Origin: Parcubacteria group bacterium
Lineage (GTDB): Bacteria > Patescibacteriota > JACQLU01
Assembly (NCBI GenBank): GCA_016203935.1
Contig: JACQLU010000038.1
Coordinates: 1 to 41,714, forward strand
DNA: 41,714 nucleotides
Reading direction: 5' to 3'
Shown here: positions 2,246 through 7,540 of the stretch, piece by piece
Layout of the letters: every line of letters starts with the position of its first letter
How positions within the stretch are numbered: the stretch's first letter is position 1
Made by a program: the position numbers and the translations under genes
The notes under the pieces: generated by a model
The model's database searches: none
What the model was told of the DNA's origin: nothing
The model's input: the letters and a program-made list of their open reading frames with translations, nothing else

Positions 2246-2848
2246 ATGGAGCGAAAACATCCATTCATCAATCCCGTCGTCAAAACTCTCATCTATTCTG
2301 ACGTGGTGCTCCAGTTCGGGTTTGGACTCATGGAGCCGTTTTTGGCGATTTATTTTAAAGAGGGTCTCACGGGAGGATCATTCTTTGGTATCGGTATTGC
2401 GTCGGCGATTTTTCTCGGTACGAAGGCTCTCTTTCAGCCTTTTATTGCGAAGATGAATGATCGGGCGCCGGGGTTTCTCTATGAGAAACGCTCGCTTCTC
2501 ATTGGCATGCTTATTACCTCTACAATCCCGTTCTTTTACCTTGCGATCACCCACATCTCACAGGTTTACTTCTTGCAGCTTCTCTACGGAATCGGATCTT
2601 CCTTCTCGTATCCCGCGTGGACCTCGCTCTTTACCCACCACGCTGATCGCGAGCGGGTAGGCTATGAATGGAGCGTCTACGATGTCTCGATTGGCATCTT
2701 TATGGCGCTAGCGTCGCTTCTGGGAGGCTTTATTGTAGAACAGTATAGCTTCAAAGTAATTTTTGTGCTGGTTGGCATCGTCTCGCTTCTCGCAACATTT
2801 GCTACATTTATTCTGCTACGGAAAGACTTTCGCGGGGAATCCTCTTAG
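2246..2848 (+). CDS. Half-length MFS transporter (six membrane segments)
   Basis: The product is 200 aa from the chosen ATG at 2246, about half of a usual 12-TM major facilitator. It shows roughly six hydrophobic segments (for example IGIASAIFLGTKALFQPFIA and LLIGMLITSTIPFFYLAI). KMNDRAPGFLYEKRSLLIG resembles the conserved MFS loop between TM2 and TM3. There is no second half downstream, since miaA follows on the other strand. It may work as a homodimer, or be a truncated gene that is still intact as a reading frame. Its stop overlaps the miaA stop: the two genes converge with a 4-nt overlap. Confidence 0.7.
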   Translation: MERKHPFINPVVKTLIYSDVVLQFGFGLMEPFLAIYFKEGLTGGSFFGIGIASAIFLGTKALFQPFIAKMNDRAPGFLYEKRSLLIGMLITSTIPFFYLAITHISQVYFLQLLYGIGSSFSYPAWTSLFTHHADRERVGYEWSVYDVSIGIFMALASLLGGFIVEQYSFKVIFVLVGIVSLLATFATFILLRKDFRGESS

Positions 2849-3876
2849 TTGCTCTCAAGGAACTCCGCCACTCGTGGCACGAGCGCGTGTGTATCGTCGA
2901 ACCATTCAATCTTTTTATTCTTCCGAAACCATGTGAGCTGCCGCCGCGCATACGCGTGGGTAGCATACTTGAGCCTCTCGATGGCGTGGGCGAGCGTCAA
3001 GCCTCCGCGAAGATACTGACCGATCTGTCGATACCCTAACCCTGACATGCTCGGTATATCCCATCCATAACGCAGAGCCAAGTTTTTCGTCTCTTCGATA
3101 AGACCATCCTTGATCTCTTGATCTACGCGCGCATCAATGCGGCGGTAGAGTTCCTCGCGAGGAAGGGAAAGACCAATCTGGAGCACCTCAAATGGCGGCT
3201 CTTCTTTTGTTTTTTGGGCAGAAAATGGAAGGTTGGTTGTGCGAATCACTTCGAGTGCGCGAATGAGCCGCCGTTTATTGTGGGGGTCTATTACGCGCGC
3301 GGTTTCGGGGTCGTATTTTTCTAATTCTAGGAGAAGCTCCTCGTTGGTCCATTGTGAAAGTTCGCCGCGTAGGGTTGATTGTGGAGGAACTTTTGGAATT
3401 GTGAGTCCTTCTACGACTGATTGGATATAAAGTCCAGTGCCACCGACTAAAAGAGGAGGCACCTCGCTGGGCAATACGGTCAAAAGCGCCGTAACAATCT
3501 TATGGTACTCGGCAACGCTAAAGCTTTCATCCGGACGTACCACATCGATCATGAAGTGGGGAATGCTAAGTGGGGACGGTCCTCCCAAGGCAGGTTGGGT
3601 GGAGACAATGAAAACTCCGCCGCAATGGAACTGATCAATAATTGTGTACAGTTTAGCATTAGTGAATACATTTTTGTATACAGGTGCTCCGCTCATGAAC
3701 TCATTTGTTGTTCTCCACTCGCCTTTGGGTTTATCGGTTCCGATATCCATGCCGCGATAAACCAACCGCGAATCGGCGGAGATGACAATGCTGTTAAATC
3801 GCTTGGCAAGTTCAATACCAAGCACAGTTTTGCCAGAGGCGGTGGGACCAACGATGGCAACCAATTTAGATATCAT
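2845..3876 (-). CDS. miaA: tRNA dimethylallyltransferase MiaA with an insertion
   Basis: It transfers a dimethylallyl group to A37 of tRNAs that read codons starting with U. Visible motifs are the P-loop GPTASGKT near the N terminus, SADSRLVYRGMDIGTDKP, IPHFMIDVVRPDESFSVAEY, GGTGLYIQ, GLGYRQIGQYL and the C-terminal RRQLTWFRK. About 45 extra residues (from RTTNEFMSG to GGPSPLS) sit between TDKPKGEW and IPHFMID, where most MiaA proteins have only a short link. The product is 343 aa, slightly longer than typical. The ATG at 3876 is supported by the conserved N terminus. There is no SD. Confidence 0.95.
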   Translation of the reverse strand: MISKLVAIVGPTASGKTVLGIELAKRFNSIVISADSRLVYRGMDIGTDKPKGEWRTTNEFMSGAPVYKNVFTNAKLYTIIDQFHCGGVFIVSTQPALGGPSPLSIPHFMIDVVRPDESFSVAEYHKIVTALLTVLPSEVPPLLVGGTGLYIQSVVEGLTIPKVPPQSTLRGELSQWTNEELLLELEKYDPETARVIDPHNKRRLIRALEVIRTTNLPFSAQKTKEEPPFEVLQIGLSLPREELYRRIDARVDQEIKDGLIEETKNLALRYGWDIPSMSGLGYRQIGQYLRGGLTLAHAIERLKYATHAYARRQLTWFRKNKKIEWFDDTHALVPRVAEFLESN

Positions 3877-3924: not shown

Positions 3925-3954
3925 TTGACAAAAGGCTCTCATATTTAGTATACT
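3925..3954 (+). promoter_or_regulatory. Strong sigma70-type promoter for the leader/66-aa gene
   Basis: Consensus TTGACA (3925-3930), an 18-nt spacer and TATACT (3949-3954). The start of transcription would be near 3961, giving a leader of about 136 nt ahead of the 66-aa gene. Confidence 0.8.
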
Positions 3955-3960
3955 TTTCGT

Positions 3961-4080
3961 AAATACTAGGAGGGAGTGTTTTTGTTTTTCAGTTTTTCCC
4001 TCCTAGAAGGAGGTAGGGATATGAGGGTATCCTGAGGTCACAACATCGTCGGCAATACCTCAGGGATTCTTGTTTTTATT
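3961..4080 (+). promoter_or_regulatory. Structured leader with alternative hairpins and a terminator-like stem
   Basis: CTAGGAGGGA (3966-3975) is the exact complement of TCCCTCCTAG (3997-4006). The same CCTCCT (3999-4004) can instead pair with AGGAGG (4008-4013) across a 3-nt loop, which would hide an SD. The two pairings exclude each other. Downstream, CCTGAGGT (4031-4038) pairs with ACCTCAGG (4057-4064) and is followed by GATTCTTGTTTTTATT, like an intrinsic terminator. The pairings are read directly. That they form a switch, or that 3961-4080 is a free small RNA, is inference. Confidence 0.55.
4021..4035 (+). CDS. Possible four-codon leader peptide (MRVS)
   Basis: ATG AGG GTA TCC TGA follows the near-perfect SD AAGGAGGT (4007-4014) at a 6-nt spacing, one of the best SDs in the window. 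Its stop codon lies inside the 5' arm of the terminator-like hairpin, so a ribosome ending there would block that hairpin. An ORF this short could be chance, but its SD and position argue for translation. Confidence 0.4.
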   Translation: MRVS

Positions 4081-4096
4081 GCTGGAAAGGAAGGCC

Positions 4097-4297
4097 ATGG
4101 CGAAGAACGGGAATGGTGCTCGTACTGTCGGGTGGAATAACTACTGCAGAGGTGACTCCAAGCCAGGACTGCGTGAGAAGAGACGGGAGCTTATAACTAA
4201 GAGAAAACAAGAGAACCCGTCTATGATCCCCCCGGTTTCCCTTTCGCCTAGAAAAAGGAGGTTGGGCTACGTAAACAAGCAGGCCGATCTGCGATAG
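4097..4297 (+). CDS. Small basic protein of unknown function (66 aa)
   Basis: Start at the ATG at 4097, preceded by AAGGAAGG 2 nt upstream; the tracked start 9 codons earlier lies by the leader hairpin T-run and lacks an SD. The product begins MAKNGNGARTVGWNNYC and is rich in Lys/Arg (REKRRELITKRKQ, SPRKRRLGYVNK), with no membrane segment and a single Cys. It could bind nucleic acid or ribosomes; no family is recognised. It is a single-gene unit with a strong promoter, a structured leader and a strong terminator. Confidence 0.6.
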   Translation: MAKNGNGARTVGWNNYCRGDSKPGLREKRRELITKRKQENPSMIPPVSLSPRKRRLGYVNKQADLR

Positions 4298-4339: not shown

Positions 4340-4370
4340 CGGCGGTGGAACTTCCACCGCCGAATTTTAT
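4340..4370 (+). terminator. Intrinsic terminator
   Basis: CGGCGGTGG-AACTT-CCACCGCCG, a perfect 9-bp GC-rich stem, is followed by AATTTTATT. It ends the 66-aa gene transcript. Confidence 0.8.
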
Positions 4371-4380
4371 TATGATCTAA

Positions 4381-4487
4381 CTCCCCCCACCCCTCTTACT
4401 CTATGAGGGGGGGGTAAGGCGACACCTCCTCTTTCCGCCAGAGGCGGATCCTCCTTAAGCGGAAAGTTAAGAGGAGGAAAGGAGGAG
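4381..4487. repeat. Purine/pyrimidine-rich inverted repeats downstream of thrS
   Basis: CCTCCTCT (4425-4432) pairs with AGAGGAGG (4470-4477), and the stem continues with CTTTCCGC against GCGGAAAG, with a TTA bulge. The loop holds TCCGCCAGAGGCGGA, a mini-hairpin whose relative recurs near 31777. A second stem is CCCCTC/GAGGGG around 4390-4410. No T-run follows on the minus strand, so this may protect or end the thrS transcript without being a classical terminator. Confidence 0.5.
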
Positions 4488-6245
4488 TTATGCGCGATTT
4501 TTTATTTCTTCTTTGATCATGCGGATAAAGTCGTCAAGTTGCACGCTCCCTTTGTCACCCTGATCGCGGCTATTGACGGCGACGGTCTTGGCCTCACTCT
4601 CCTTTTTCCCGATCACTAACACATATGGCGCTTTACCAAGTTTCGCATCACGCAGCTTTTTGCCTAATGTTTCGTTTTGATCGTTAAGTTCCACGCGGAT
4701 TCCATTGGTGGCAAGCGCATCTACCACCTCGCGCGCATAGGGAATATACTCATCGGCGATAGTGAGCACCGAAACCTGCACCGGCGAAAGCCAAGTGGGG
4801 AATTTGCCGGCGTAGTGTTCAATGAGGATAGCCATAAACCGTTCCACTGCGCCACTAATCGCGCGGTGGATCATTACGATTCGCTCTTCCTTTCCCTCTT
4901 CGTTTACACAGGTCAAGTTGAATCGTTCTGGCAAATTGAAGTCAAGTTGAATCGTGGCGAGCTGCCACGCACGGCCGATGGCATCGCTCGCAATAAAATC
5001 AATTTTAGGCCCGTACATGGCGGCTTCTCCCGCTCCATCGATCACGTCGGTGGCGCCTCGTTTTTCGATGATGCGCCGCATCTGATCTTCAGCCTCTTTC
5101 CATATCGCGGGAGTTCCTAAATACTTCTCAAAGTGATCGGGGTCATGCCGCGAGAAGCGCACGGCAAGCGGCATCTTAAACGGCGCATAAAAGCCATCCA
5201 CAATATCCCATACCTTCATAGCCTCTTCTTCCACTTGATTCATGCGGCAGAAGACGTGGGCGTCGTCTTGAGTGATCATCCGCACCCGTGAGAGACCAGA
5301 AAGTTCGCCGGTCTGTTCGTCGCGATAGACCGCGGTTACCTCGGAGAAACGGAGCGGAAGCTCGCGATAGCTTCGCTTGCGGCTCGCATAGATCTGGGTG
5401 TGGTGGGGGCAATTCATGGGTTTCACTGCAAACTCATGTCCTTCGCGTGAAGTGATCTTAAAGAGTTCATCCTTAAATTTCTGCCAATGCCCCGAGGTTT
5501 CGTAGAGTGCTTTCTTGGTAATGTGGGGAATTCGCACCCGCTGGTATCCCATGGGAACCTGAAGCGACTGTACAAAATTTTCGAGTTCCTCACGGATGAC
5601 GGTGCCGCGCGGCGTAAAGAGCGGAAGCCCCGGGCCGACGAGGTCCGAGAATGTAAAAAGGTCAAGTTCGACTCCCAATTTACGATGATCGCGTTTCTCG
5701 GCTTCCTCGCGTTGCTTTAAGAAAGCATCAAGTTCCTCCTGGGTCGCGAACGTGGCGCCATAAATACGCTCTAGTTGCTCACGTTTCTCATCGCCGCGCC
5801 AGTAAGCACCCGCGATGGAGAGGAGTTTCACTACACCAATATCTTTGGTTGACTCAACATGCCCGCCGCGACAGAGATCGGTAAAGACCTCGCCGGTTTT
5901 CTCAAGGCCGAGTTCAGTGGCGCCCTCTCTCACGAAGTCGTCGATTAGTTCAAGTTTAAATGGCTGGTCTTTCTTTTCAAAGAAGGTTTGTGCGGTCTTA
6001 GGACTTACCTTTTCGTGCGTAAAGGGAAGATCCTTCGCAATGATCGCCCGCATGCGTTTCTCAAGCTCGGCAAGATCCTCGGGAGCGAGCGCACGAGGAA
6101 GCAAGAAGTCATAATAGAAGCCTTCCTCAATGGCGGGGCCCACTCCCAACTTCGCGTCAGGAAACAACTCTAACACCGCCATGGCGAGGACGTGAGCGGC
6201 AGAGTGACGGCGAGATTCTAAAGAGAAAGGTTGATTTCTAGTCAT
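4488..6245 (-). CDS. thrS: Threonyl-tRNA synthetase lacking the TGS domain
   Basis: It charges tRNA-Thr. Starting at the ATG at 6245 it gives 585 aa; the tracked start 14 codons earlier is a TTG. It opens directly in the editing domain: RRHSAAHVLAMAV carries the HxxxH pair and CRGGHVES follows. The class II catalytic core shows MNCPHH (zinc cysteine), the motif 2 region SGLSRVRMITQDDAH and motif 3 HRAISGAVERFMA. The C-terminal anticodon-binding domain contains NDQNETLGKKLRDA. The roughly 60-residue N-terminal TGS domain of most bacterial ThrS is absent, as reported for reduced bacterial lineages. No SD and no T-box were seen. Confidence 0.95.
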   Translation of the reverse strand: MTRNQPFSLESRRHSAAHVLAMAVLELFPDAKLGVGPAIEEGFYYDFLLPRALAPEDLAELEKRMRAIIAKDLPFTHEKVSPKTAQTFFEKKDQPFKLELIDDFVREGATELGLEKTGEVFTDLCRGGHVESTKDIGVVKLLSIAGAYWRGDEKREQLERIYGATFATQEELDAFLKQREEAEKRDHRKLGVELDLFTFSDLVGPGLPLFTPRGTVIREELENFVQSLQVPMGYQRVRIPHITKKALYETSGHWQKFKDELFKITSREGHEFAVKPMNCPHHTQIYASRKRSYRELPLRFSEVTAVYRDEQTGELSGLSRVRMITQDDAHVFCRMNQVEEEAMKVWDIVDGFYAPFKMPLAVRFSRHDPDHFEKYLGTPAIWKEAEDQMRRIIEKRGATDVIDGAGEAAMYGPKIDFIASDAIGRAWQLATIQLDFNLPERFNLTCVNEEGKEERIVMIHRAISGAVERFMAILIEHYAGKFPTWLSPVQVSVLTIADEYIPYAREVVDALATNGIRVELNDQNETLGKKLRDAKLGKAPYVLVIGKKESEAKTVAVNSRDQGDKGSVQLDDFIRMIKEEIKNRA

Positions 6246-6287
6246 AGCATCAGAAATAAGAAGAAGCCTCGGCAAGAAGGGATACAA

Positions 6288-6400: not shown

Positions 6401-7540
6401 TTAAAGACTTGGCGGATTTTTGACGACTACCCGAATGCGATTCTTGACGAAGGGTGTAAGGGGAAGCCAGCGCGGCGAAGTGACTACGGTAAAACGCTCG
6501 ACGTCGCTCCGGCTTTGAAAGAGCGTGGCGAGTCCCGCTTTATTCTTTGCGGCGAGCGCCTTGCCCGGAAAATCTTCCGCGGTAAGACGCGGTCCCGTCG
6601 CTACGGTGACCGTCACATGAATCGTTGCGCCGGTTTCATTCTGCGTAAGTATCTTGACCGCGATCGTCTCTGGTTGATAGGTAAGAATGGAATCCTTATC
6701 AGGAAGATCAGTGCCGGCGAGAAGGATGGCCGTCCGCGTAAGCTCGCCGAGGTCAACCGCGTACCCGGTTACGGTCGCCGAAAGGCGATATTGGCTACTC
6801 TCCTGTGATACACTATCAAGCGTTTCATCGTCAATAGTGACGGCGAGGGTTTCGGCGAGAAGCTTTTGGCGTGGCGAGAGCGTGCGACTCAATTCTTCCG
6901 TAGCTGATCGTTTCGCTTGCGCAATCAGTCGTTCCCGTAAGGCAGCAAGCTCCGCTGGTACGATCTCTTCTTCACCCCCGCCGCGGAAGGGCGCCTCAAT
7001 CTCGGCATAGAGACGATCTTTAAGATACGCGAGTGCGGTGAAAAAGAGTCGCCCCTCATTGAGATCACCTGTACTGCCCGCCTGATCGGCAACGACATGC
7101 ACGTCTGGTTGCGACTTACCGGCGGGGATAGTAGACGGTGCCTGGGTACGGAAGATGACACCCGCTTCATTTTGGAGACGCGAGCCGGCGACGATCGTTT
7201 GCTCGCGCGTCTGCGCATTCACAATGGTCACGGATCCCTCGGCGCGCCCCTCATGCGGAATGCGCGGAAGGTTACTTACATTCTCACTCACCGCGATTTG
7301 AGTCGTAAGCGGTGTAGCCGTGATTAGCTGTGGGTCGATGGGAGAGGGGTCGGTGGTGATCGTGAGGGTACGTTCAATCGCCCGGGGGACAAGTTTAGGA
7401 TAGACCGTGATCGTGGCCGAAGCAAAGGCAAAGAAGAGCACGACGAGAAAGAGAGACGTTGCGGCAATAAAAAAGGTGATCGCGAAGACGCGGAAGGGAA
7501 GAGGCGGGAGATGACTTTTTGGAGTTTTACGCCGAGACAT
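6401..7540 (-). CDS. Single-pass membrane protein with baseplate-J-like extracytoplasmic region
   Basis: 379 aa. A basic N terminus (MSRRKTPK) precedes one hydrophobic segment at about residues 17-42 (FRVFAITFFIAATSLFLVVL), so most of the protein should be outside. The segment VTIVNAQTREQTIVAGSRLQ followed by GVIFRTQ and TIPAGKSQPDVHVVADQAGS resembles CPR proteins commonly annotated as baseplate J/gp47 family. No other phage or secretion-system baseplate gene is present, so a tail-like role is unsupported and a surface or envelope role is more likely. It lies between thrS and dnaE on the same strand. The start is the ATG at 7540, without SD. Confidence 0.6.
   Translation of the reverse strand: MSRRKTPKSHLPPLPFRVFAITFFIAATSLFLVVLFFAFASATITVYPKLVPRAIERTLTITTDPSPIDPQLITATPLTTQIAVSENVSNLPRIPHEGRAEGSVTIVNAQTREQTIVAGSRLQNEAGVIFRTQAPSTIPAGKSQPDVHVVADQAGSTGDLNEGRLFFTALAYLKDRLYAEIEAPFRGGGEEEIVPAELAALRERLIAQAKRSATEELSRTLSPRQKLLAETLAVTIDDETLDSVSQESSQYRLSATVTGYAVDLGELTRTAILLAGTDLPDKDSILTYQPETIAVKILTQNETGATIHVTVTVATGPRLTAEDFPGKALAAKNKAGLATLFQSRSDVERFTVVTSPRWLPLTPFVKNRIRVVVKNPPSL

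Follow-up and report, generated by a model that had tools for sequence, protein, structure and literature searches.

Between positions 3925 and 4372 of the 41,714-nt window analysed here (the whole of contig JACQLU010000038.1, our C87, from the Parcubacteria group bacterium assembly GCA_016203935.1), the + strand carries a leader followed by a putative gene of 66 codons. We propose, with a probability of about 0.4, that the two form a monocistronic unit controlled by a translation-coupled premature terminator. At the heart of the leader, a four-codon open reading frame (ORF), ATG AGG GTA TCC TGA (MRVS, 4021–4035, called hereafter the mini-ORF), has its stop codon in the 5' arm of a probable intrinsic terminator, called H2. 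The proposal is based on sequence elements, folding energetics and the enrichment of element classes in the genome, from which we infer termination, the effect of the ribosome and any signal.

The genome comprises 1,000,159 bases in 97 contigs, is 87% complete, and is the sole representative of its family, order and class among the genomes searched. All of its stretches were read, so that background rates could be drawn from its own noncoding DNA, about 179–189 kb as set by a simple ORF mask. Local chance was estimated from 3000 dinucleotide shuffles of positions 3961–4096, and every chance count on elements of the locus is post hoc.

H2 (4031–4080) consists of a stem of 8 Watson-Crick pairs (4031–4038/4057–4064) closing an 18-nt loop and followed by a U-rich tail (4067–4080), with a folding energy of −13.2 kcal/mol and a T score of 3.55. 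Terminators of this class were found 62 times in the noncoding DNA, versus 0–2 times (about one) in shuffled sequence, and in 19 of these 62 the loop is at least 12 nt long. A terminator-like hairpin was present in 0.07% of the local shuffles. H2 is probably a premature terminator, genuine-looking by these counts. No other result speaks as strongly for an earlier note on this DNA, which had been made from the sequence alone and had described a stem with the TGA in its 5' arm and a T-rich run behind it. When free transcripts ending at 4070 or later were folded, the probability of H2 was 0.67–1.00. It dropped to 0.00 when the footprint of an initiating ribosome (4006–4037) or of a terminating ribosome (4015–4048) was blocked, and another hairpin, H3 (4049–4057/4077–4085, −12.0 kcal/mol), which excludes H2 as a nested fold, formed in its place. 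As far as geometry goes, folding thus supports the suggestion of the earlier note that a ribosome on the mini-ORF blocks the terminator.

Loading of such a ribosome would depend on the Shine-Dalgarno (SD) sequence AAGGAGGT (4007–4014), which is complementary over 8 nt to the end of the 16S rRNA here, GATCACCTCCTTTCT, and is well spaced from the ATG. The combination of AAGGAGG, an ATG and an ORF of at most 10 codons occurred in 0.13% of the local shuffles. An alternative ORF of 17 codons (3982–4035) starts at a TTG in the same frame and ends at the same TGA; its translation is LFFSFSLLEGGRDMRVS (as translated, the first codon being TTG). It is probably silent, because its own SD, the AGGAGG at 3968–3973, is predicted to be paired within a hairpin, H1, described below.

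Upstream, a sigma-70-type promoter (TTGACA at 3925–3930, an 18-nt spacer, TATACT at 3949–3954) matches the consensus at 11 of 12 positions. Promoters with at most one mismatch numbered 35 in noncoding versus 7 in coding DNA; base counts alone would predict 0.23 to 1, which makes such promoters about 20-fold denser in noncoding DNA than in genes. Since its class is so strongly enriched there, the promoter of the locus is likely real, and would place the transcription start near 3961. Near-consensus promoters with strong SDs were also noticed at L118:7701, L115:1001, L070:5053, L062:8296 and L093:9598, ahead of ORFs of small to middle size that have no obvious identity; CxxC motifs and atypical codon use are seen in some of them.

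At the other end of the unit, about 280 nt beyond H2 and after the 66-codon ORF, lies a second intrinsic terminator (4340–4372), with a 10-bp stem (4340–4362) and a T-rich tail. Between these terminators the + strand yielded no promoter-like site, and read-through of H2 is therefore implied by the sequence. The 66-codon ORF itself (4097–4297, ATG at 4097) is preceded by an AAGGA (4087–4091) with a 5-nt spacer, a weaker SD than that of the mini-ORF, and would encode a basic protein, MAKNGNGARTVGWNNYCRGDSKPGLREKRRELITKRKQENPSMIPPVSLSPRKRRLGYVNKQADLR. By sequence and geometry, the locus thus has a probable terminator between promoter and putative gene, and an upstream ORF (uORF) with a ribosome binding site, placed so that a ribosome on it would block the terminator. 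The consensus promoter and the strong SD serving four codons, both described in the earlier note, are present as it had them. For the basic 66-residue gene that it had placed downstream, the ORF, SD and ATG stand, and the status of an established gene is not confirmed, codon use being unlike that of most genes and like that of other small orphans of this genome (see below).

The 5' part of the leader was inspected for a switch. H1 (3966–4006) pairs 3966–3976 with 3996–4006, by 10 Watson-Crick pairs and one G-U, around a U-rich loop, and so engages the upstream AGGAGG with the CCTCCT at 3999–4004. The same CCTCCT could in principle hide the SD of the mini-ORF, and the earlier note had pictured these two pairings as mutually exclusive hairpins. 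The complementary elements are indeed present, but not the working switch: H1 has an energy of −18.9 kcal/mol versus −10.9 for the SD-hiding fold, a gap of 8 kcal/mol, H1 can form before its competitor, and at every transcript length folded its probability was 0.90–1.00 and that of the SD-hiding fold 0.00. A switch with two exclusive folds was rejected on these energetics, which do not support the idea that the SD is freed by regulated pairing with the upstream copy. Because H1 wins and forms first, the SD is predicted to be left unmasked by CCTCCT in the default state. When a transcript ending at 4030 was folded with and without the 5' strand, a comparison proposed in the earlier note, the exposure of the SD was 0.94 with the strand and 0.33 without it. 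H1 is thus predicted to keep the SD open as a default structure holding CCTCCT away, and not as half of a switch, unless some factor captures its 5' strand.

Stems of at least 10 pairs numbered 113 in the noncoding DNA of the genome versus 2–6 in shuffled sequence, and a perfect stem of that length was present in 0.2% of the local shuffles. The triple AGGAGG, CCTCCT, AGGAGG occurs once genome-wide and in none of 20 shuffles. It may be under selection, and its purpose could be merely to keep the SD open. Further inverted repeats rich in AGGAGG and CCTCCT lie at 4424–4485 of the window, just past the stop codon of thrS on the − strand, and are perhaps the terminator region of that gene.

The following course of events is proposed. 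H1, being stable, would fold at once and keep the very strong SD clear of CCTCCT. Ribosomes would then initiate on the mini-ORF, the last codons of which belong to the 5' arm of the terminator. While a ribosome occupies this site, be it in initiation, in a stall or in termination, H2 is predicted not to form, and polymerase would read on through the 66-codon ORF to 4340–4372. If initiation is slow, or if the ribosome leaves early, transcription would stop near 4080 and an RNA of about 120 nt would be released. By analogy, the likeliest signal setting ribosome occupancy would be free initiation capacity or drug-stalled ribosomes. A more specific version, in which the locus is a minimal attenuator of Patescibacteria, H1 holding the near-perfect SD open, ribosomes that load on the mini-ORF directly blocking the terminator and so reporting ribosome availability, and synthesis of a lineage-specific basic protein being confined to times of abundant free ribosomes, is an improbable conjecture.

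Several observations weigh against translational control of H2. The 3' arm of H3 (4077–4085) is made after the U-run and the termination point, too late for H3 to be a classical antiterminator, and steric blocking by the ribosome would therefore have to suffice; the leader showed no antiterminator that could fold before that point. The AUG of the mini-ORF is partly paired in most longer transcripts, with a probability of being unpaired of about 0.23–0.74. Mini-ORFs of at most 10 codons with a strong (6-nt) SD number 14 in the noncoding DNA versus 6.7 +/− 2.8 in shuffled sequence, only about twice chance, and under a loose definition of the mini-ORF its combination with an adjacent terminator was found once genome-wide, against 0.78 expected, which is chance level. 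A search for further such units in the same genome gave one weak hit, at L122:4713 (MDQ). In codon score, 99% of length-matched gene segments exceeded the 66-codon ORF, whose value was typical of off-frame DNA; in synonymous codon score, 98% did. Finally, protein, DNA and pattern searches for relatives of the leader or of the 66-codon ORF, covering genomes of its own family, order, class and phylum, a set of genome contigs, viral contigs, phages and plasmids, found none, so that neither conservation nor covariation speaks for the leader. They returned nothing beyond low-complexity U-rich and chance matches, and three weak matches to the 66-codon ORF are the number expected by chance at that E-value from 379 genomes.

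The poor codon score was not taken to rule out a gene in the 66-codon ORF, because scores are just as low in other short orphans of this genome that have an SD (−0.145 and −0.302, versus −0.168 here). Shuffling the gap between the neighbouring genes produced a + strand ATG ORF of such length in 9% of cases. Searches of Pfam, NCBIfam and PHROGs with the predicted protein gave no match, a search of PDB sequences gave none that was significant, and an AlphaFold model from the single sequence was uninformative (predicted local distance difference test score 63.6, predicted template modelling score 0.27).

The chief rival explanation, which we consider rather unlikely, is that the RNA of about 120 nt (3961 to ~4080), with two hairpins and an exposed purine-rich, SD-like linker, is itself the functional product, and that whatever lies downstream is leaky read-through. 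It would make direct use of a credible terminator (H2), of the very stable H1 and of the noncoding-like codon use of the 66-codon ORF, and there are precedents in this genome, where several near-consensus promoters lead into stretches resembling noncoding RNA without an SD-led ORF, one of them into the RNase P RNA. Yet it leaves unexplained why an ATG is optimally spaced from the SD, the terminator behind the 66-codon ORF suggests that a longer transcript is intended, and a search of the locus against Rfam matched no family, either at the gathering score or with E-values up to 10.

Next comes a plain messenger RNA for a small orphan protein, in which a structured leader is stabilising, the mini-ORF and the stem behind it are incidental, and nothing is regulated. 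Several small orphan ORFs of this genome are indeed driven by a strong promoter and a strong SD, and the near-chance numbers of mini-ORFs would be expected. What makes this explanation unlikely is that the strong SD goes to four codons and the weak one to the 66-codon ORF, and that the terminator class to which H2, within the leader, is assigned shows strong enrichment.

The last rival, that ATG 4021 opens a longer gene broken at the TGA by decay, sequence error, read-through or a +1 shift at TCC TGA, is very unlikely, since the open frame would cross the terminator H2, its 34 open codons past the TGA are common by chance, and the bridge in the +1 frame (4025–4096) ranks, by synonymous score, with the lowest 0.3% of real segments. 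In its favour, those 34 codons have a gene-like codon score, above that of 25% of real segments and reached, which is weak evidence, by only 11% of off-frame segments, and the frame ends in WCSYCRVE, whose CxxC motif is also seen in other small orphans here. TGA serves this genome as an ordinary stop, ending 164 of 528 long ORFs, and ARAGORN found no UGA-reading tRNA in the 87%-complete genome; a recoded or selenocysteine UGA gene was rejected on both counts. The +1 frameshift sites of RF2 (prfB) and of antizyme have an early in-frame UGA just after a purine-rich, SD-like stretch. TCC TGA is likewise early and behind an SD-like purine stretch, but the shifted frame here is not coding-like and the ORF has no relative.

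Translational control of a premature terminator can be compared with known systems. In the amino-acid attenuators of trp, phe and his, a leader ORF overlaps the terminator and alternative hairpins are available, as they are here. The two differ in that the MRVS ORF has no run of codons for a single amino acid, and in that full translation here would favour read-through, which is the opposite logic. The TTG-start ORF is rich in Phe and Ser, for which the U-rich loop alone is a sufficient explanation.

Closer parallels come from ribosome-mediated attenuation. In the are5sc leader, uORFs of three codons (MLV and MRS) take part in such control of transcription, and lmrC, vgaA, msrD, vmlR and vgaL are named as further examples (PMC12421871). 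The locus resembles are5sc in its uORF of three to four codons, in the intrinsic terminator, here a probable one, within the 5' untranslated region, and in a decision on read-through that would be made by the ribosome on the uORF. The contention of the earlier note that no named class matches is therefore not upheld. The are5sc-type systems differ in that they control antibiotic resistance genes, with conserved uORFs and toeprinting, whereas the ORF here is a predicted orphan, and the locus lacks an antiterminator before the decision point. The Listeria rli80-hflXr attenuator, with a leader ORF of 14 codons (PMC6310831), similarly combines a premature terminator, a small ORF in the leader and read-through that depends on the ribosome. 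Ribosomes are known to prevent the formation of intrinsic terminator hairpins (PMC5021804). Membership in an attenuator class is not claimed for the locus, because neither an early antiterminator nor any relative in which to assess conservation was found.

Judged by its elements, the locus is credible as a regulatory leader or as a small RNA, and would be of an ordinary kind. The prediction comes from one genome, and its target is an orphan. If real, it suggests that reduced genomes such as those of Patescibacteria use uORF-controlled premature termination. Gene regulation in these bacteria seems hardly studied, and a full-text literature search on them with small RNA and Shine-Dalgarno returned no paper from the collection searched.

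The unit occupies part of the 611 bp that separate miaA (− strand, 2845–3876) from thrS (− strand, 4488–6287), and is divergent from the former and convergent with the latter. As the best relatives of miaA are less than about 50% identical, they offer no close anchor of synteny.

Three more strong-SD micro-ORFs, MKRC, MPFL and MKEHSLFDRK, were noticed in hairpin-rich noncoding DNA at L166:2540–3000 and 4520–4700 (contig C79:22540–24700), and an 11-bp hairpin encloses the SD and ATG of MPFL in its loop. The transfer-messenger RNA (tmRNA) and the small signal recognition particle (SRP) RNA were rejected as identities of the locus, which matches neither. Neither was detected in the 87%-complete genome, by ARAGORN for tmRNA and with RF00169 (E-values up to 10) for the bacterial small SRP RNA; the RNase P RNA is on contig C33. 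At L079:1–7153 (contig C40), the 16S gene ends near 419 and the 23S gene starts near 7014, leaving an unusually long spacer of about 6.6 kb that contains tRNA-Ile and tRNA-Ala.
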